Assembly (NCBI RefSeq): GCF_000214705.1
Contig: NC_015573.1
Coordinates: forward strand, 1,511,001 to 1,575,000
From: Desulfofundulus kuznetsovii DSM 6115
GTDB lineage: Bacteria > Bacillota > Desulfotomaculia > Desulfotomaculales > Desulfovirgulaceae
Length of the DNA stretch: 64,000 nt
Reading direction: 5' to 3'
Shown here in pieces: positions 199 to 47,746 of this stretch; position 1 is the stretch's first letter; every line of letters begins with the position of its first letter. The position numbers were made by a program, and so were the translations under genes. Under the pieces are notes generated by a model. The model made no database searches. It was not told the origin of the DNA and saw nothing but the letters and a program-made list of their open reading frames with translations.

Positions 199-882
199 TT
201 AAGGTTCAATATCCCGGGCGTTGTATAGCTTTTGTAGTTCCTCTTTATCCATCTTCATCAGCCTGTCCAGTTCCTCATCAAACTTCCCGGCCTTGATTTC
301 TTCTACCCGTTTGGCCAGGTGTTGGGCCGGTGGGGCAATATGGCGGCCATAGAGCCGGCGAGCCAGAATGGCCACATTATATTGAACGATTTCAGCGGGA
401 CAGCGGGAAGCACAGAGACCGCACATAATACAATCGAAGGATAAATGGGCCACTTTTTCAATATCTCCCCGCTGGGCCGCGGCTATATAGTCCATTACCT
501 TTAATTCCTGGGGACAGATCCTGGTACACTGGTTGCAACCAAGGCAGCGGGTTGTTTCAGGATAGTACCGCAACAATGTGGCCAGGGTGGGAGTGAGTTC
601 TTCCAGGTTATAGGTGGCTTTATTGGCCGGGTAAAAGGGGATCTGGGTCAAATACATGTTGTCTTCCACCATGGTTTGACAGGCCAGGCCCACTTTTAGC
701 CTGAAATCTCCCGGTTTGCGGTAAACCGTACCACAGGCACCGCAAAAACCCCCCCGGCAGCCGCAGCCCCGGATAAAACGGTAGCCCGCGTATTCCATGG
801 CTTTCATAATCGTCAGGCCATAGGGCACCTTATAATGTTTACCCATAATGTATATGTTTACCATTTCTCTTTCTTCGGCCAT
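199..882 (-). CDS. Succinate dehydrogenase/fumarate reductase-type iron-sulfur subunit (2Fe-2S plus two 4Fe-4S)
   Basis: About 227 residues. The N-terminal half has a plant-type 2Fe-2S site (CGCRGGFCGACG, then a later AC before QTM). The C-terminal half has two CxxCxxCxxxCP motifs (CLGCNQCTRICP and CIMCGLCASRCP) for two 4Fe-4S clusters. This is the SdhB/FrdB/TfrB domain order, so it should wire a flavin to a thiol- or quinone-active partner. The ATG at 882 is chosen because GGAGG lies 8 nt upstream; a TTG at 900 would overlap that site. It sits 25 nt after HdrB, so the complex likely contains HdrB and HdrC as electron entry or exit. Substrate unproven. Confidence 0.8.
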   Translation of the reverse strand: MAEEREMVNIYIMGKHYKVPYGLTIMKAMEYAGYRFIRGCGCRGGFCGACGTVYRKPGDFRLKVGLACQTMVEDNMYLTQIPFYPANKATYNLEELTPTLATLLRYYPETTRCLGCNQCTRICPQELKVMDYIAAAQRGDIEKVAHLSFDCIMCGLCASRCPAEIVQYNVAILARRLYGRHIAPPAQHLAKRVEEIKAGKFDEELDRLMKMDKEELQKLYNARDIEP

Positions 883-907
883 AATTCTTTCCTCCTTCAA
901 GGCAGAT

Positions 908-1771
908 CTACGCTCCCACCAGTAAAGGTCTGGGATCTACATAGTGTTGATCCAGCCCAAGGCTTTCCTGGGGGAGTTCCAGAGCTAAACCCAAAAGCTG
1001 GGTAAAATACAAAACGGGGATTTTTTGAAAACCGGCGTTCTTCTGGAGGATTTTTTCCTGCGACCAGTCCAGGTTAAACTGGCAAAGGGGGCAACTGGTG
1101 ATGATTGCTTCCGCTCCCTTGGCAGTGGCAGAGTTCAGTATTTCCTCCACCTTTTGCATTACCAAATCGTTATCATACAGTATTTGATACGAACCACAGC
1201 AGGTTGTTTTATAGGAATATTCTACCACCTCCGCGCCTATGGCACTAACTAGCTCTTCCATGATGGTGGGGTTTTCCGGATCGTCGAAATTCATTTCCGA
1301 AGCCGGCCGGACAAGCATGCAACCATAATAACAGGCAACTTTAAGCCCCTTTAGGTTTCTTGTTGCCTTGTCCCTGATTGCATCAAGCCCAACATTTTCC
1401 TTACAGATTTGCAGCGGGTGGACGGGTTCAATTTCCCCGGCATAATTTTCTTCTAAATAATCATTTAGTTTTTTTCTGGCTTCAAGGTTGTTTTTTATGA
1501 CATAATTGACCCTTTTTAGTACGTGATAGCAGAAGGAGCAAACCGTAACGAGCTTGCCCCCCTCTTCTTTGGCCGCATTGGCTAAAATGCGTGCTGCCGC
1601 GACCATGCCGATGTAATTGTCCTGGGCCAGGGGAAATACCGTGCCGCAGCAGGTCCATTGGGGCAGTTCAGTTAATTCGATGCCTAAAGCGGCCAGGGAG
1701 CCCCGGGTAGAATCATCCAGACCCTTTGCTTTGCTGTGCAAGGTGCATCCTGGAAAGTATGGGATCCTCAT
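908..1771 (-). CDS. hdrB: Heterodisulfide reductase subunit B-like protein (two CCG domains)
   Basis: A 287-residue protein with the two cysteine-rich CCG signatures of HdrB: WTCCGTVFP near residue 41 with SFCYHVL, and TTCCGSYQ near 190 with SCPLCQFNL. In methanogen HdrB these bind the noncubane 4Fe-4S clusters that cleave a disulfide. Here it is cytoplasmic, with no membrane segment. The gene lies 14 nt after hdrC and directly before an FrdB-like subunit, matching a split version of TfrB of thiol:fumarate reductase. The physiological disulfide or thiol is unknown; CoM/CoB are not expected in this organism. Confidence 0.85.
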   Translation of the reverse strand: MRIPYFPGCTLHSKAKGLDDSTRGSLAALGIELTELPQWTCCGTVFPLAQDNYIGMVAAARILANAAKEEGGKLVTVCSFCYHVLKRVNYVIKNNLEARKKLNDYLEENYAGEIEPVHPLQICKENVGLDAIRDKATRNLKGLKVACYYGCMLVRPASEMNFDDPENPTIMEELVSAIGAEVVEYSYKTTCCGSYQILYDNDLVMQKVEEILNSATAKGAEAIITSCPLCQFNLDWSQEKILQKNAGFQKIPVLYFTQLLGLALELPQESLGLDQHYVDPRPLLVGA

Positions 1772-1785
1772 CCTTGTCCCCCCTT

Positions 1786-2187
1786 TTACGCGCTTAGCTT
1801 GCGAAAACCACTGGTTAAGGCCATCTGTGGAACTTCCGTGAGCAATTCTAACGGGATTTTTTCGGCAACCAGTACTTCCCTGCCCTGGCGCAGGTTAATT
1901 ACCCGCAGGGCTTCCATCAACCGGGCAATGTCTATGCCCCGGGGGCAGCGGGCGGTACAAATTAAACAAGTGCTGCACACCCAGATGGATTTTAAATTTA
2001 ATGCCTTTGTGTTTCCCAGTTGAATCATGCGCATGACCTGGCGCGGTGGAAAGTCCATAACCTCTCTACCCGTACAACTTGCGCTGCAGGTTCCACATTG
2101 CATGCAAAGATTGGCATTTTGCCCGCTTATTTCTTTGATACGCTCAATCAAATCCCGGCTTATTTTACTTGATAGATCCATAGCCAT
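1786..2187 (-). CDS. hdrC: Heterodisulfide reductase subunit C-like ferredoxin protein
   Basis: 133 residues with two 4Fe-4S motifs, CMQCGTCSASC near residue 28 and CSTCLICTARCP near 71, separated by the basic FPPRQVMRMIQLG segment typical of HdrC. It passes electrons to HdrB. First gene of the visible minus-strand operon; the ATG has GGAGTAAG 7 nt upstream. No membrane anchor, so the complex should be soluble. Confidence 0.85.
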   Translation of the reverse strand: MAMDLSSKISRDLIERIKEISGQNANLCMQCGTCSASCTGREVMDFPPRQVMRMIQLGNTKALNLKSIWVCSTCLICTARCPRGIDIARLMEALRVINLRQGREVLVAEKIPLELLTEVPQMALTSGFRKLSA

Positions 2188-2518: not shown

Positions 2519-2833
2519 TTATTCACTAACAGGAGCGATTCGTGGTACACCCAACCTGTCCAGGTAGTTCACCACTGGAACGGGCGCTAAACCGCCCTTG
2601 ACTGCTAGTATTCCATCAACCAGGACTACCGGCGATTCCTCAGGAGCCAAATTGCCGTCAAACCGGTAGGTCAACACCACGCCGCTACCATACAGTCGCT
2701 CCAGCACGCCCTCTAAAAACCGGTATTGAAAGGATAGATCGCGTTCACCAAACGCGCATCCTTCCGGTAATCAACCAGGGCGCCCTCCTTCGTTAGACGG
2801 AACATTGCCTAAAACTTCCACTCTAACAGGCAT
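2519..2833 (-). CDS. Candidate selenoprotein, thioredoxin-like, Sec at codon 21 (U-x4-C)
   Basis: Reading from ATG 2833, which has GGGAGGG 8 nt upstream, gives a 104-residue protein interrupted only by one TGA (2771-2773) at codon 21. The frame is continuous on both sides: MPVRVEVLGNVP before it, and after it LPEGCAFGE and a hydrophobic core ending VVLVDGILAVKGG. Reading the TGA as Sec gives U21-x4-C26, a plausible redox pair after a first beta strand. The later pattern (helix FLEGVLERLYG, strand VVLTYRF, strand PVVLVDG) resembles small thioredoxin-fold proteins such as YuzD; that fold is inference. Directly after the TGA is a strong SECIS-type hairpin, and selA, selB and selC are in this window. 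A simple gene finder would report only the 62 codons after an internal ATG. The alternative is a pseudogene with a nonsense mutation, but the hairpin argues against it. Confidence 0.75.
2719..2770 (-). promoter_or_regulatory. Bacterial SECIS element in the selenoprotein mRNA
   Basis: The mRNA right after UGA folds into three coaxial stems with perfect Watson-Crick pairing: ACCGG with CCGGU, AAGGAU with AUCCUU, and CGCGUU with AACGCG (17 bp), closed by a five-base loop UGGUG. A six-base 3' bulge and a small internal loop separate the stems. The loop begins 21 nt after UGA and carries GGU, as in the E. coli fdhF SECIS loop, where GGU is recognised by SelB. Position, length and loop G fit the known bSECIS rules. 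Confidence 0.8.
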
Positions 2834-2908
2834 CCAGTAGCCCTCCCTACTAATTTGGGGTGGTTAGGATTATGTATACGCCCAAGTTGTGTTTACCGTG
2901 GAAGGTGG

Positions 2909-3295
2909 TCAAATAGTGATGAATTCAAAAAACTGGACCAGTTGATCACCTTTGTTTAAGAGGAGTTCTTCTATCTGGGAGGGAGTTAGACTTCTGATTT
3001 CATACGGATTTTCTTTATCAGCCACACTGAACATGACCCTTTTAATCTTTCCTGATTCTATAGCTACCGTAATCACAATATTTTCCTGTTCATTAAAATC
3101 CATACTGAATTCAAACTCATCAAAATCTTCCGGTGGATCTGGCAAATAGGTGCAACTAATTCCAAGGCAATTTATCCTCTCTGTGTCTTTTAAATTTTCC
3201 GGGTTAATTTCTTTATCCATATATTTGCGAAATCGCTCCATAAGACTTTCCTGGTTCAAAAAACTTAACAATTCCTGATACACTGTACCATTCAT
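2909..3295 (-). CDS. Hypothetical acidic protein, 128 aa
   Basis: Starts MNGTVYQELL; upstream codons in the same frame run into transposon-end sequence, and GGAGAGG lies 10 nt before this ATG. The middle is acidic (PPEDFDEFEF) and alternates strands and charged helices. No membrane segment or signal peptide, and I do not recognise a family. It lies 75 nt upstream of the candidate selenoprotein on the same strand, so they may be co-transcribed. The IS607-like remnant abuts its 5' end and may have replaced its original promoter. Confidence 0.55.
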   Translation of the reverse strand: MNGTVYQELLSFLNQESLMERFRKYMDKEINPENLKDTERINCLGISCTYLPDPPEDFDEFEFSMDFNEQENIVITVAIESGKIKRVMFSVADKENPYEIRSLTPSQIEELLLNKGDQLVQFFEFITI

Positions 3296-3299
3296 TGTT

Positions 3300-3561
3300 A
3301 AGCGGCCTCTCCATGACCAGGCTTTCACTCCTTTCCGGATTGGATTTGCCCGCCCCTGGGAGCGGGCATGGCGACTGGGAGACCTCGGCCCCGGGAGTCC
3401 CACCCGAACGGGAGAACTGCGCGAAACAGGCACCTCCGGCTTGCATCTTCATCAATGTTGACTATTTCGCGGCCCCAGCACTCAAGTTTCTTGAGTGCCG
3501 AACGCTCCCCGCAACCTGTTAGGTACGGCCTACCGGTTTGTCCGATACCGGCTAAACGGGG
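3300..3561 (-). other. Structured 3' end of the IS607-like element, possible guide-RNA (omegaRNA) region
   Basis: No ORF of interest. Contains several inverted repeats: CACTCAAG/CTTGAGTG at 3479-3497, a GCCCG..CGGGC-type hairpin near 3349-3368, and GC-rich arms further right. In IS605/IS607 elements the region overlapping and following tnpB encodes the omegaRNA guide scaffold. Assignment is by position only. Confidence 0.35.
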
Positions 3562-4539
3562 TCACCTACTTGATAAAGCGAGCTGCATCAACTCGTGCCA
3601 GACGGAATAAAACGATTCCTGCTTAAAACGGGTCAACCCGTTGTGAATGGGAATCTTTCCTTCCAGCCGCTTGAAGAGTCGCTTCACCTTTCGGGTCATC
3701 CCTCTTCCTTCCCCAGGTAAGGAATCAACCTTCTGGTTCAGCTTCTCTTTGATGACTCGAATCTTTTGCTTCAACTCGCTGGTAATGCACTCTCTGAAGC
3801 CTATCGCACGCCGGGCAATAACCAGTGCAGCGGCGTGGTGGACAATTACCCCGTACCGATCCATGTACTTGTACTTAATGTTCGGATTGCCGCCCTTGGT
3901 TTCGTCTCCCCGGACGTACAGCCGATCCTGCCGGGCATTTCGCCATTCTTCTTTTGTGGCTCTGCCCCTGCAGACCCGCTTCCACAAAGAACGGCCGCCA
4001 AAAACTACCGTGGGTATGGTGCCGTTATTTTGATGGGTTTTCAGTTCATCCAGCTTCGTCTTCAGTCTTTTGACCCGCGCTTTGCGGCCGTGTACGGCGC
4101 GTTCGGCTTTCTCGATTTTTACCGGGTCGTTTGCTTCAACCGCTTTACCCAGGTCTTTTTCCGCCCAGCCGAGTTTCTTCCTGGCACGGGCCAGCTTTGT
4201 TTCCGTTTCCTCGATTTCCAGCGCCAGCAGTCCCCTCTGTGATTCAATAATGGCCTTTGCTTTCAATACGGCATCGTCACAAAAACGGGAGTTTATGCCA
4301 AATAGCTTCTGGCCTTCTCTTTTGAGCTCTTCACGGGAACGGCCTTCCTGCAGCCGGTTGAACGCCCAACGCTGGCATGAACAAAAAAGGCGCATCTCGG
4401 TGACCAGGGGGTCTTCGCCACCTCGACCCCAACGCAGGCTGCGCCGGGCAGGAAAACTTTCCGGAAACCACTCGCCGCATACGGTGTATTTTATACTTTC
4501 ATCCGGGTTAATTGTTGCCTTCTTTTTTGGCTTTTTCAT
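3562..4539 (-). pseudogene. tnpB: IS607-type TnpB, internally deleted (RuvC core missing)
   Basis: An uninterrupted 325-codon frame. The N-terminal two thirds have the usual basic coiled region and RDRLYVRGDETKGGNPN-like segment (reads QDRLYVRGDETKGGNPNIKY), then jump straight to YMDRYGVIVHHAAALVIARR and the C-terminal tail. Full-length relatives have between these points the RuvC Asp and Glu motifs and the four-Cys zinc finger; none is visible here. The protein is therefore about 100-180 residues short and cannot cleave DNA by the known mechanism. The deletion is in frame, which is unusual for simple decay. Overlaps tnpA by 32 nt as in intact elements. Confidence 0.7.
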
Positions 4540-5168
4540 CCCGCTCCACTCCCACTATCAGCTCCCGAAACCCCTGCCTAACCCTCCTGCCGCCCCTGGC
4601 GCCGTACAAACGGGCCGAAAAGGTCGTGACTATGGCCAAAAGGTCCCGGACCAGCTCGGAATTGACGTCCTCCGGCTCTTTTTCCGCGATGGCGATTATT
4701 TCTACGCCGCAGTACCTTAAATGCCGCTCGATATACTCATAACCAAACCGGGCCAGCCGGTCGGGATATTCGATGATGAGCTTCTTATACTCGCCCTGCT
4801 CGGCCAGCTTGAGCACGTTCGCTAAACCGCGGCGCTTCTGGTTCAGGCCGCTGGCCACGTCTGTGAACTCCGCCCTGATGGTAAAACCGTTTTCCCGGGC
4901 GTACTGCCGCAGCCGTTCGATCTGCCGGTCCAGGTTGCCCGCGTCGGCCTGCTTTTTTGTGGATACCCGGGCGTAAAGCACGACTGCTTCCTGCCCGTCA
5001 TTCAACTGACCGGACTGCAGGAGCCTGTTGAGTTCGTCCATAGAGTACCGGCGCTGGCCTCCAGGCAAACGAACGGGACAAGATTTTGCCGCGTTTTTCC
5101 CAGTTGCGCAGGCTGTTGGGATGAACGCCTAATTTTTTTGCCGCTTTGCTGATGGTTAATAGTTCCAT
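4508..5168 (-). pseudogene. tnpA: IS607-family serine recombinase TnpA, frameshifted
   Basis: The C-terminal 186 codons carry the resolvase catalytic domain: LYARVSTKKQ with the active Ser, then TDVASGLNQKRRGL and the recombinase helix with YPDRLARFG. The MerR-like DNA-binding N-terminus is encoded from ATG 5168 (MELLTISKAAKKLGV, then LRNWEKRGKI) but in another frame. One extra base near 5075-5083 separates it from RLPGGQRRYSMDEL. In intact IS607 TnpA these are one protein, so this copy is broken unless the ribosome slips. Confidence 0.75.
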
Positions 5169-24797: not shown

Positions 24798-24895
24798 GGG
24801 AGTGGATGGGGCCTGGTGGCCCTCCTGGTCTTCAAAACCAGCTGTGGGGCGGTAATCCCGTCCCGGGTGAGTTCGATTCTCACACACTCCCGCCA
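24798..24895 (+). tRNA. selC: tRNA-Sec (UCA anticodon)
   Basis: 98 nt with encoded GCCA end. Extended acceptor (GGGAGTG.../CACTCCC), anticodon stem CTGGT/ACCAG enclosing loop CTTCAAA with anticodon TCA (24832-24834), long variable arm (CTGTGGGGCGG...CCCGTCCCG) and T-loop TTCGATT. Same layout as E. coli selC. It reads UGA as selenocysteine together with SelB; selA and selB lie about 20 kb away in this window. Confidence 0.95.
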
Positions 24896-44287: not shown

Positions 44288-46216
44288 TTATGACCGGTTT
44301 TTTTGTTTCTCCGCCCGGGTGAGGACCCGCTTATCCTCCACCCGCCGGGTAGTTTTTTCCCGGTCAAAATACTCTAAGAGGGGCAGCGCGTACTTCCGGG
44401 ACGTTTGCAGCAAATCCCGGGTTTCTCCCACCGTGATTTCTCCCTTTTCCCGCAAATAGTCAACCAGTGCCTGCCGGGCCCTGTCTACACAGTCCGGGTG
44501 AAAGTACAGATCGTCGGCTACCCGCACCAGCAGGCCTTTCTTGAGCAGGTATTGCAAAATCTCCTGGGCCGCTGGGCCTTCCAGCCCTGCCCTGCGGGCT
44601 GCCTCACCCCAGGCAGGTGGCTGGTAATTTGCCTCCCTGTACATCTCAAGCAAATGCTTTATTTGTTGTTCCTGTTTATGGTTGGGCCTCGGGGTAAATT
44701 CAGGCAGGGCTATATCCTGGGTGTAAAGCTTCACCAGGCCATCTTCTTCCATAACCTGGAGAAGAGACTGAAACTGTTTGCTGTTCAACCCTGCAAGCAG
44801 GCGGGAACGCATTTCTTCTTTGGGGAAACCTTCCCGCAGCGGGAAGTCCCGGTGGTATTCTTGCAGTATCAAGCGCATATTTTCCGCCCACTGCAGATAG
44901 ACTTCCTGGAGAAGATAATAAACCTGGTTTTCGGAGGGTATGGGGCGAACCTGCTTTTTCTCCACCAGGGAGAGCAGGGTATCCTTTACTGTCTTCTCAT
45001 CCAGCCCGCTGGCCTTAACCAGTTCTTCTGCCGTAAGGATAGTCCGGTGACTATTGAGTTGCTGAAGCAGGAGTTCTTCAGGTGTACCCTTTTCCCGGGT
45101 TAAGAGGCTTTCAATTACTTCTGCGCGCAGGCGCCGGTGTTTTGGTGCTACCGGATCAATGATCCTACCGCCGCCAATGGTGCGTACCGGGGAATAGGAA
45201 CGTACGACAAACCGGTCCCCCTGCACGGCCACCGCGGGTTCCTCCAGTTCCAGCTGGGCCAGGGCCGTCTCCTCCGGGGCCAGTTCATCCCGGTCCAGGA
45301 GGATTACCCGGCACATAATTTCCGCCGTTCCCAGGTGCAGGCGCACCCGGCTCCTGTTTTTCAAGGGCCTGGCTGTTCCCAGCAGCACAAAGCGGACATC
45401 CAGGCGGTAGGAGGGGGTCAGACTGCCGGGAGTGGCCAGGACACTGCCCCGGGGCACTTCCTCGACTTCTACCCCGGTCAGGTTTACCGCTACCCGCTGT
45501 CCGGCCCGGGCTTCTTCCACTTTCCGTCCGTGCACCTGCAGCGTGCGGACCCGGGAGGCTATTTTGCGGGGCATAATTTCCAGCGCATCCCCGGCGCGCA
45601 GTATGCCGCTCCACAAAGTACCGGTGGCTACGGTGCCAAAACCGGTGATGGAAAAAACCCGGTCAACAGGGAGTCGTACGTGACCGGTGGCCGGTTTTTC
45701 CTTGACCTCCTGCGCTACCAGATCGATGGTGCGTAAAAGTTCGTCCAGCCCCTGACCGGTAACACTGGAAACCTCCACCACCGGTGCACCTTCCAGGGTG
45801 GTACCCTTGAGAAAATCCACCACCTCTTCCCGCACCAGGTCCAGCCATTCCCGGTCCACCAGGTCCACTTTGCTCAGCACTACTACTCCCCGCGGTATTT
45901 GCAGGAGGTGAATGATATCCATATGCTCTTTTGTTTGGGGCATAATTCCTTCATCGGCGGCAATGACCAGGAGCACCAGATCAATACCACCGACACCGGC
46001 CAGCATGTTTTTGATAAAACGCTCATGGCCCGGGACATCTACGATGCCGGCCTGCCGGCCGCTGGGCAGGGTTAAGGAAGCAAAGCCCAGTTCAATGGAG
46101 ATACCCCGTTCCTTCTCTTCCTTTAAGCGATCCGTATCTACTCCGGTAAGGGCCTTGACCAGCATGGTTTTGCCGTGATCCACATGACCGGCGGTTCCGA
46201 TGATCAAATAGGTCAC
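44288..46216 (-). CDS. selB: Selenocysteine-specific elongation factor SelB
   Basis: 642 residues. GTPase motifs [11 protein letters not shown] (7-17), DVPGHERFI and SKVD, beta-barrel domains 2-3, then C-terminal winged-helix domains (for example [28 protein letters not shown]) that bind the SECIS loop. Delivers Sec-tRNA to UGA codons followed by a SECIS. Overlaps selA by 4 nt. Expected to read the hairpin of the candidate selenoprotein in this window. Confidence 0.95.
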
Positions 46217-47640
46217 CTTTCGACCTCCTCCCCGGGTTGAAGTGCTGCTGTGACGGCTTGAACCAGAATCTCCTCTTCTCCAGGTAAAACGGTGCGGATG
46301 TCCAGGAACAACCGGTCATCCTGCACCCGTCCCATGACCGCCGGTTCCCCGGTCCGTAAGATCCTGGCCAGATTCTCGCTATCCGTTTGCCGGGATCGCA
46401 CTGTGACGGCCATGGAGGGCAGGTCGGCCGTAGGCATAGCCCCTCCCCCTACCCGGGAAATGACAGGTTCTATCTCAATGAAGGCCTTTTCTGCAACCAT
46501 CTGGCGCATTTGCTCCGCCAGTTTCCGGGCCCGTTCTTCCAGCTCGGTTACGCTTGCAGTGAGCATGCGCAGGGTGGGGATATGGACTAAGGCCTTGTCG
46601 GGCTCGAGGTATAGCCGCAGGGTGGCTTCCAGGGCGGCGGCGGTAAACTTGTCAATACGTATGGCCCGGGTCAGGGGGTTTTTCTTCATTTTTTCGATGT
46701 ACTCGCGCCGGCCCACGATAATGCCCGCCTGGGGACCACCTAAAAGCTTGTCGCCGGAAAAGGTGACCACATCGGCGCCAGAGGCCACGACCTCTTGTAC
46801 CGTTGGTTCGGCAGGGAGTCCAAAGTGGCTTAGGTCCACCAAAAAACCGCTGCCCAGGTCGCTCATCACCGGTAAACCATATTCTTTGCCCAGTATGACC
46901 AGTTCGTTAACGGTAATTTCCCGTACGAAACCTACCATACGGTAGTTGCTGGTATGAACATGCAGGAGAAGAGCGGTCCGGTCGGTAATGGCCCGGCGGT
47001 AATCATCGGGATAGGTCTTGTTGGTTGCTCCCACTTCCACCAGGGTGGCTCCGCTTTGAGCCATGACCTCGGGAATGCGAAAGGAGCCGCCAATTTCTAC
47101 CAGTTGGCCCCGGGAGACAATAACTTCCCGGCCCCGGGCCAGGGTGCTCAGGGCGAGCAAAACAGCGGCGGCATTGTTGTTCACCACCATGGCTGCCTCC
47201 GCCCCGGTCAGGCTGGTGAGCAGCCCTTCCAGGGGAGCATAACGGGAGCCCCGGCGACCGCTCTGAAGATCCAGCTCCAGGTTGCAGTAGCCGGAAGCCA
47301 CCATCTCCACTGCGGCCCGGGCGGCATGGGCCAGCACGGCCCGGCCCAGGTTGGTATGCAGCACTACCCCCGTGGCATTGATCACCCGGCGCAAATTTGC
47401 CCGGGAGCGGCGGGCGGTTTCCCGGATAACTTCCCCCACTACCCGGGCGGTAATTTCTGCGCGCCCCATCTCCTCCTTTGCCCCCTCCGTTAAGAGGGCC
47501 CGGCGCCAGCGATCCAGAACTTTCCGGACCGTTTCTACCACCAGGTTGCGGGGCTTTTCCGCCAGCAGGTCTGCCACTTCCGGCGAGCGCAATACTTCGT
47601 CCACTGCCGGCAATTTGCGTAAAGCTTCTTTATTGTCCAT
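46213..47640 (-). CDS. selA: L-seryl-tRNA(Sec) selenium transferase
   Basis: 475 residues from ATG 47640, which has GGAGG 10 nt upstream (an in-frame start 36 nt earlier is less likely). [33 protein letters not shown] and the PLP lysine in [20 protein letters not shown]. Converts Ser-tRNA(Sec) to Sec-tRNA(Sec) using selenophosphate. The supplier of selenophosphate, selD, is not in the window. Confidence 0.95.
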
Positions 47641-47746
47641 GATTCTGTTTGCCTCCGCTACCATTGTCCCCAACATTATAGGGCAAGCATGCCGTTCAAA
47701 GCAAGTGCGCGGGGTATGCCCGGTTTGCTCTGCCCAGCTCCCCCTA

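Follow-up and report, generated by a model that had tools for sequence, protein, structure and literature searches.

The window analysed here is a stretch of 64,000 nucleotides from Desulfofundulus kuznetsovii DSM 6115, whose genome is a single contig of 3,601,386 bases. The gene under study (Table 1) is a frame of 104 codons that is interrupted by a TGA at codon 21 and is otherwise intact; this is what a first-pass annotation of the sequence had claimed, and it is borne out on the minus strand, from 2833 to 2519, the annotation itself having given no strand. Likewise, the ribosome site that it saw ahead of the ATG is there, and so is the U-x4-C spacing of the protein, formed by the residue at the TGA (Sec21) and by Cys26. 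The closest named relative found, that of Desulfofundulus thermosubterraneus, is 92% identical over the protein and has the same TGA. A contig search with the single window protein returned one true relative, together with a Natronococcus protein (34% over residues 40-103) that we set aside as likely a chance or a remote thioredoxin-like match. A scan for promoters and terminators around the gene gave nothing beyond chance level. Directly upstream, at 2909-3310 of the minus strand, lies a small conserved ORF (cluster C5) that recurs at four of the five loci of the genus, with no Pfam match in the copy of locus L072 and none above cut-off in that of the window; it may share a transcript with the selenoprotein gene. 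Two further adjoining ORFs of the minus strand, at 3562-5068, presumably encode a TnpB-type transposase and a serine resolvase, an IS607-like element by look.

Table 1. Coordinates of the features discussed, in window positions.
Feature	Position	Strand	Remarks
Predicted selenoprotein gene	2519..2833	minus	104 aa with Sec21, stop codon included; aligned TGA in 23 other genomes
ATG start codon	2833-2831	minus	
In-frame TGA, codon 21, predicted to be read as selenocysteine	2771..2773	minus	invariant column in alignment A2
Cys26 codon, possible resolving residue	2756..2758	minus	Cys26 in 17 of 24 members
Stop codon of the gene	2521-2519	minus	
Shine-Dalgarno sequence GGGAGGG, 7 nt 5' of the ATG	2841..2847	minus	direct reading of the sequence
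Conserved apical SECIS hairpin, 7-bp helix, GGU loop, covarying	2740..2756	minus	
Full predicted SECIS stem-loop in the source genome, -16.6 kcal/mol	2728..2765	minus	row L011 is the same gene
HdrC-, HdrB- and iron-sulfur (Fer2/Fer4) genes, probably a separate unit	199..2187	minus	conserved beside the gene only within the genus
tRNA-Sec gene	24798..24891	plus	Rfam RF01852, 74.8 bits against a cut-off of 47
selB, Sec-specific elongation factor	44288..46216	minus	TIGR00475, E 8.2e-113
Probable selA, Sec synthase	46213..47676	minus	ORF adjoining selB

The same window holds genes for the insertion of selenocysteine. The ORF adjoining selB is probably selA-like, and selD, which lies elsewhere in the genome, has an in-frame TGA of its own, followed by a hairpin within the loose bSECIS limits given below. 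In the class, selB scores above its cut-off in 109 of the 113 genomes, so the occurrence of the family cannot be compared with a lack of the Sec machinery. Another short, Grx-like frame containing a TGA (L097, at G000:C1:1997314-1997511) occurs in the same genome and weakly matches UXX-star family 1 (26.2 of 72 bits).

How widely is the TGA conserved? Seven of the nine genomes of the taxonomic family, the source included, hold a relative with exactly one TGA each, and in the other two (G003 and G007) no relative was found. A profile of these seven proteins (A1), run over the 113 class genomes, gave matches at E 0.01 in 26 of them, of which two were dropped, namely a false match in G017 (L042) and, in G081, a decayed fragment where the contig ends (L039). 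In each of the 24 intact members that were kept, which come from 24 of the 113 class genomes and from 11 GTDB families, the same aligned column is a TGA; for G054 and G056 a longer reading of the frame is needed to show the protein with this column. In alignment A2, made of 22 members (all but L037 and L038), the lowest identity to the window protein is 28%, and the invariant columns are G9, Sec21 and Y56. Cysteine is found at the Sec column in none of the matches in the 113 class genomes. In a search of 398 genomes of the phylum with the A2 profile, where the best 12 candidates of each genome were considered, at least 43 genomes gave a match at E 0.01; the eight strong matches (E below 1e-10) are all TGA members already known from the class, with no Cys orthologue among them, and the other matches are remote. 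Cysteine is present only in such remote relatives (L056; L098). The usual test of exchange between Sec and Cys is therefore missing, and we count this against the selenoprotein reading.

Cys26 is present in 17 of the 24 members. The seven members that do not have it carry APCU (L034, L037, L038 and L043), APFU (L035) or RPGU (L040 and L041) at the site, and three of them, L035, L040 and L041, the latter two from one genus, have no cysteine anywhere. In other words, it is Sec, and not the U-x4-C spacing, that is the constant of the family, while Cys26 is a feature of a clade. The first-pass annotation had proposed that homologues would carry Cys or TGA aligned at position 21 and would conserve Cys26: the former part stood, entirely through TGA (24 of 24, with no Cys), and the latter held in part (17 of 24). 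As evidence to the contrary it had named homologues lacking any Cys or Sec at this site, or close relatives with different stops, and two sequences touch on this. In G053, L036 carries Ser at the Sec column and sits in tandem with its Sec-bearing paralogue L043, and the decayed fragment L039 has TAG there. As L039 also contains two TAA stops and lacks Cys26, we take it for a pseudogene and do not count it as refuting the reading. A seemingly broken second copy also adjoins the gene of G052 (G052:C8:5349-5644). Nearly identical selenoproteins occur in three different families (L017 in G006, L025 in G079 and L024 in G094), and their flanks (L077, L078 and L079) are related as well, with cluster C18 in all three and clusters C33, a PIN-domain protein, and C34 in two; this looks like recent horizontal transfer.

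The region past the TGA changes as expected if it is translated, with differences commonest at third positions. Between the window gene and L014 there are 17, 14 and 30 changes at codon positions 1, 2 and 3, respectively, and between the window gene and L015 there are 32, 15 and 45. Non-synonymous codons outnumber synonymous ones in these pairs (28 vs 19 for L014 and 36 vs 23 for L015), so the constraint is moderate, in a protein that continues to diverge; for the two closest pairs the two kinds are about equal (7 vs 7 and 10 vs 9).

The model of bacterial SECIS elements (bSECIS), as given in the accessible part of PMC13188914, asks for a loop of 3-9 nt with a G in its first two positions, a stem of 4-16 bp, a distance of 16-37 nt from UGA to loop and a minimum free energy of at most -7.5 kcal/mol. 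The window gene agrees with it on all four counts. Taken loosely, the same limits accommodate 17 of the 24 members, with L015, L027, L029, L031, L032, L037 and L038 falling outside, and they also accommodate 21 of 101 real TGA stops and 115 of 600 coding positions, i.e. about 20% of the background, a figure slightly understated in that the background was folded at every second length and the members at every length, and whose coding frames are open stretches of more than 200 codons in any frame, as opposed to confirmed genes. With such a background, the loose limits are weak evidence. Folding energies are uneven as well. For the window region they are -20.5 and -22.5 kcal/mol (z of -3.5 and -3.4), and for the relatives z is -2.8 for L013, -2.3 for L014, -1.0 for L012 and near 0 (up to 0.1) for L015, L016 and L017. 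In a control in which 20 members were synonymously recoded, the fraction of recoded versions that are at least as stable is 0.05 or less in seven (the window, L013, L014, L024, L026, L043 and L040), and L027, L029 and L031 fold worse than most of their recoded versions (fraction above 0.7). As the energy is clear in only seven of 20, we rest the case for a SECIS element on covariation and on the position of the helix.

For covariation we aligned 19 members without gaps, 18 of them distinct, leaving out L016, L030, L040, L041 and L043, which have length changes at the hairpin or the hairpin elsewhere. It contains a 7-bp helix at a fixed distance from the UGA. In this helix 80.2% of the cells are paired, compared with 57.8% in shuffled alignments; both sides have changed in 28 cells, compared with 9.2; and the covariation score is 0.616, compared with 0.228, with none of 500 shuffles as high on any of the three measures. 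With the helix shifted by 1-3 columns, 31-60% of the cells pair, 6-22 cells show double changes and covariation is 0.08-0.33. Two other counts show no clear excess, namely the number of pairs with a double change (7 vs 5.1, reached by 55 of 500 shuffles) and the number of further pair types (14 vs 12.3, reached by 127 of 500). RNAalifold recovers the helix unaided, with a 5-nt loop and double changes in all five pairs, and every one of the 19 aligned members has the loop G. What is more, a complete 5-bp helix at the exact place together with the loop G occurs in 14 of the 24 members, which are related and thus not independent counts, as against one of 600 coding positions and none of 101 TGA stops.

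What kind of protein is it? The window protein has no Pfam or NCBIfam match at E 1, and for the 22 members scanned there is no Pfam match at cut-off. Below the cut-offs, five of the 22 match Thioredoxin_3 (PF13192; best E 0.0032, 17.9 of 24.8 bits), two reach 24.4 and 24.0 bits with DUF1462 (PF07315; best E 3.8e-5, cut-off 25 bits), and three match the thioredoxin-like model TIGR00412, whose best E of 0.0045 is also the best among the NCBIfam matches. Six NCBIfam families are matched in all at E 0.1 over these members, and among the selenoprotein models of NCBIfam 20.0, scanned at the same threshold with L037 and L038 left out, only seleno_TsoC appears, for one member at E 0.093. In comparisons of profiles with hhalign, the family aligns with a mixed set of remote relatives that includes one DUF1462 protein (A4) at 98.5% and a pairwise E of 4e-15, a value that does not come from a database search, with a second set (A5) at 97.8% (pairwise E 9.9e-13), and with the DUF1462 protein alone at 92.9% (pairwise E 3.8e-7). 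Structure 1xg8 of the PDB is matched by the A4 profile at E 2e-16, a profile that itself holds a DUF1462 protein, and by A2 alone at E 0.09. AlphaFold gave a mean pLDDT of 38.5 with single-sequence and 38.2 with two-sequence input, values too low for the models to be of use. A proline ahead of the third strand, Pro68, is kept in 19 of the 22 A2 members (missing in L029, L031 and L033) and would fit the cis-proline of thioredoxins. The CxxC/UxxC active site of thioredoxins is absent, the window protein having U-x4-C and seven of the 24 members having no Cys26. Judging by these profile relations, the product appears to be tied to small thioredoxin-like proteins, of which it would share the fold.

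The remote relatives deserve attention in their own right. The profile searches covered this phylum, and a plasmid search gave no match; in two other classes, at E 1e-5, two of seven and two of ten genomes gave matches, all of them remote. Among 24 loci listed from the search of the 398 phylum genomes there are many short thioredoxin-like proteins, a dozen of them with a TGA of their own. Five such small TGA proteins from other classes of the phylum (L049, L051, L057, L060 and L065) belong to the same superfamily by profile (A4), and a hairpin is predicted 3' of the TGA in all five, at -9 to -24 kcal/mol. Their motifs differ from the U-x4-C of the window family, being C-x4-U in the first three and CxxU in the last two, and two alignments disagree as to whether Sec21 is equivalent to the Cys or to the Sec of these sisters. 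L049, L051 and L057 form a sister family of about 110 residues with the motif GSRxxDNCxxxGUG, a TGA and SECIS-like hairpins (-23.9, -19.7 and -9.2 kcal/mol, respectively); no selenoprotein model of NCBIfam matches L049 at E 0.1, and L098 looks like a Cys form of this family. L060 and L065 are small and thioredoxin-like, with REC(Y/S)(T/S)UGTLPTQEE and a hairpin 3' of the TGA, and NCBIfam gives no match for L060 at E 0.1. More short thioredoxin-like TGA proteins, of UxC, CxU and GGU types, come from other classes (L050, L054, L055, L058, L068 and L069) and probably represent several further families; L050 weakly matches the HUIPC selenoprotein model (E 0.0011, 19 of 105 bits).

Given the conserved UGA, the covarying SECIS helix, the translated far side and the Sec machinery, the first-pass reading of a hidden selenoprotein is supported, and we regard the gene as almost certainly a selenoprotein gene, as far as sequence analysis can tell. 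What looks like a gene broken by a stop is, in all probability, functional and codes for a small protein that contains selenium, most likely one with a redox role. For the fuller reading, in which UGA21 is read through SelB, Sec-tRNA and SECIS and the product, by its profile relation to thioredoxin-like proteins, is itself small and thioredoxin-like, we estimate a probability of roughly 0.8. SelB with Sec-tRNA would decode codon 21 as selenocysteine, guided by the downstream hairpin. The product would be cytosolic, with Sec21 in the loop that links strand 1 to helix 1, the place of the active site in thioredoxins, and our best guess is that Sec21 would be the attacking selenol of a reaction of the thiol/disulfide type. 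In the main clade Cys26 would then close a selenenylsulfide, and in clades lacking this residue its part may fall to a vicinal Cys (APCU) or to a thiol from outside. That the protein works as a redox protein at all we consider reasonably likely.

Could the TGA simply be a real stop, with two short adjoining genes or a pseudogene at the locus? TGA is normally a stop in this organism, a 62-residue ORF begins past it and the related copy L039 is decayed; yet the codon stands at one column in 24 genomes, with identity down to 28% among the 22 aligned, and both the covariation of the hairpin and the third-position excess beyond the TGA speak against termination, so that this explanation seems to us hardly tenable. 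A selenoprotein might also bind a soft metal or metalloid (arsenic, mercury or selenium species) in the manner of an ArsD chaperone, instead of being a redox catalyst. In ArsD-type chaperones two of the metal-binding cysteines are spaced C-x4-C, the same spacing as U-x4-C, one member weakly matches ArsD (PF06953, E 0.3), and L054, a remote relative, has a match at E 0.0063 to VcpD, a family related to ArsD. However, these matches, at 11.8 of 27 and 16.4 of 90 bits, are far under the cut-offs, the Cys-free members L035, L040 and L041 would be poor at chelation, and there is no metal-resistance gene among the ten flanking genes scanned with Pfam. Eight of these ten matched (uridine kinase-type, YchF GTPase, radical SAM, FAD protein, epimerase, ABC permease, [FeFe] hydrogenase and PIN) and two did not, with no common theme. 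On balance, we find metal binding unlikely.

The neighbourhood suggests one more role, namely that of a dedicated electron carrier for the adjoining Hdr/fumarate-reductase-like gene set, the gene having been described at the outset as lying next to an Hdr-type redox operon. We compared 24 stretches around the gene by clustering their ORFs. At all five loci of the genus (L071-L075, the window's own included) HdrB-like and Fer2/Fer4-type genes follow on the same strand, and at four of the five there is an HdrC-like gene too. Against this role, a gap of 331 bp separates the gene from hdrC in the window, and none of these Hdr or iron-sulfur genes is seen in the other 19 neighbourhoods, some of which end soon after the gene (L081, L084). 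The proximity to the operon thus holds within the genus and the link does not extend beyond it; we conclude that the selenoprotein gene is free-standing, and a carrier function tied to Hdr is, in our judgement, very unlikely.

The family appears new with respect to the reference lists searched, while single members may still be annotated in other sources. In a 2026 table of 119 prokaryotic selenoprotein families and subfamilies (PMC13188914) it is not recognised: there is no U-x4-C entry, the nearest spacing being UxxxxU of TsoB, and for the several entries given without a motif the distinction rests on the NCBIfam and Pfam scans. None of the new families of deep-Sep fits, going by the available portion of PMC12013277, and such a protein is not mentioned in the accessible text of a 2007 stop-codon screen (PMC1914089) or of a 2016 survey (PMC5029168). 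As far as Pfam, NCBIfam 20.0 and the 119-family table can show, the first-pass description of the protein as undescribed holds.

Cys homologues exist for most of the known selenoprotein families and are an aid to discovering them. They are reported for all new families of deep-Sep in the available portion of that paper (PMC12013277). A family that has no such homologues easily escapes notice, and annotation may split its genes or take them for pseudogenes. Three members in which Sec stands without any cysteine make the question of why selenium is used, and not sulfur, directly testable in a protein some 110 residues long. Going by the sister TGA proteins, these anaerobes seem to have more selenoproteins than are currently counted. 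We would give even odds to a broader proposal, namely that small thioredoxin-like selenoproteins of Firmicutes-type anaerobes make up a large superfamily that has been overlooked, with the window family as the first of its branches to be recognised. In this superfamily Sec alone would be essential and the Cys partners would vary (U-x4-C, CU or none); no Cys orthologue is known, and the sister branches have C-x4-U or CxxU. If this were so, selenium would do something in these proteins that sulfur cannot replace.

Several known systems come close to the family in one respect or another. MTH895/ArsE-type thioredoxins (TIGR00412) and UXX-star selenoproteins (NF041114) are likewise small proteins of the thioredoxin superfamily, but neither model is matched by the window protein at E 1, and the nearest NF041114 match of the genome is a different gene. 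DUF1462/YuzD (PF07315; PDB 1xg8, SA0798 of S. aureus) is of similar size and aligns with the family from helix 1 to the C-terminus; it differs in having CxxC (L064) instead of Sec, and the N-terminal Sec loop stays unaligned. Finally, Sec.1 and Sec.2 of Brachyspira (PF13192), as described in the accessible part of PMC5330540, are also small thioredoxin-like selenoproteins with a bacterial SECIS element; in contrast to the family described here, their Sec lies in a short extension before the thioredoxin domain, and Cys homologues of them exist.
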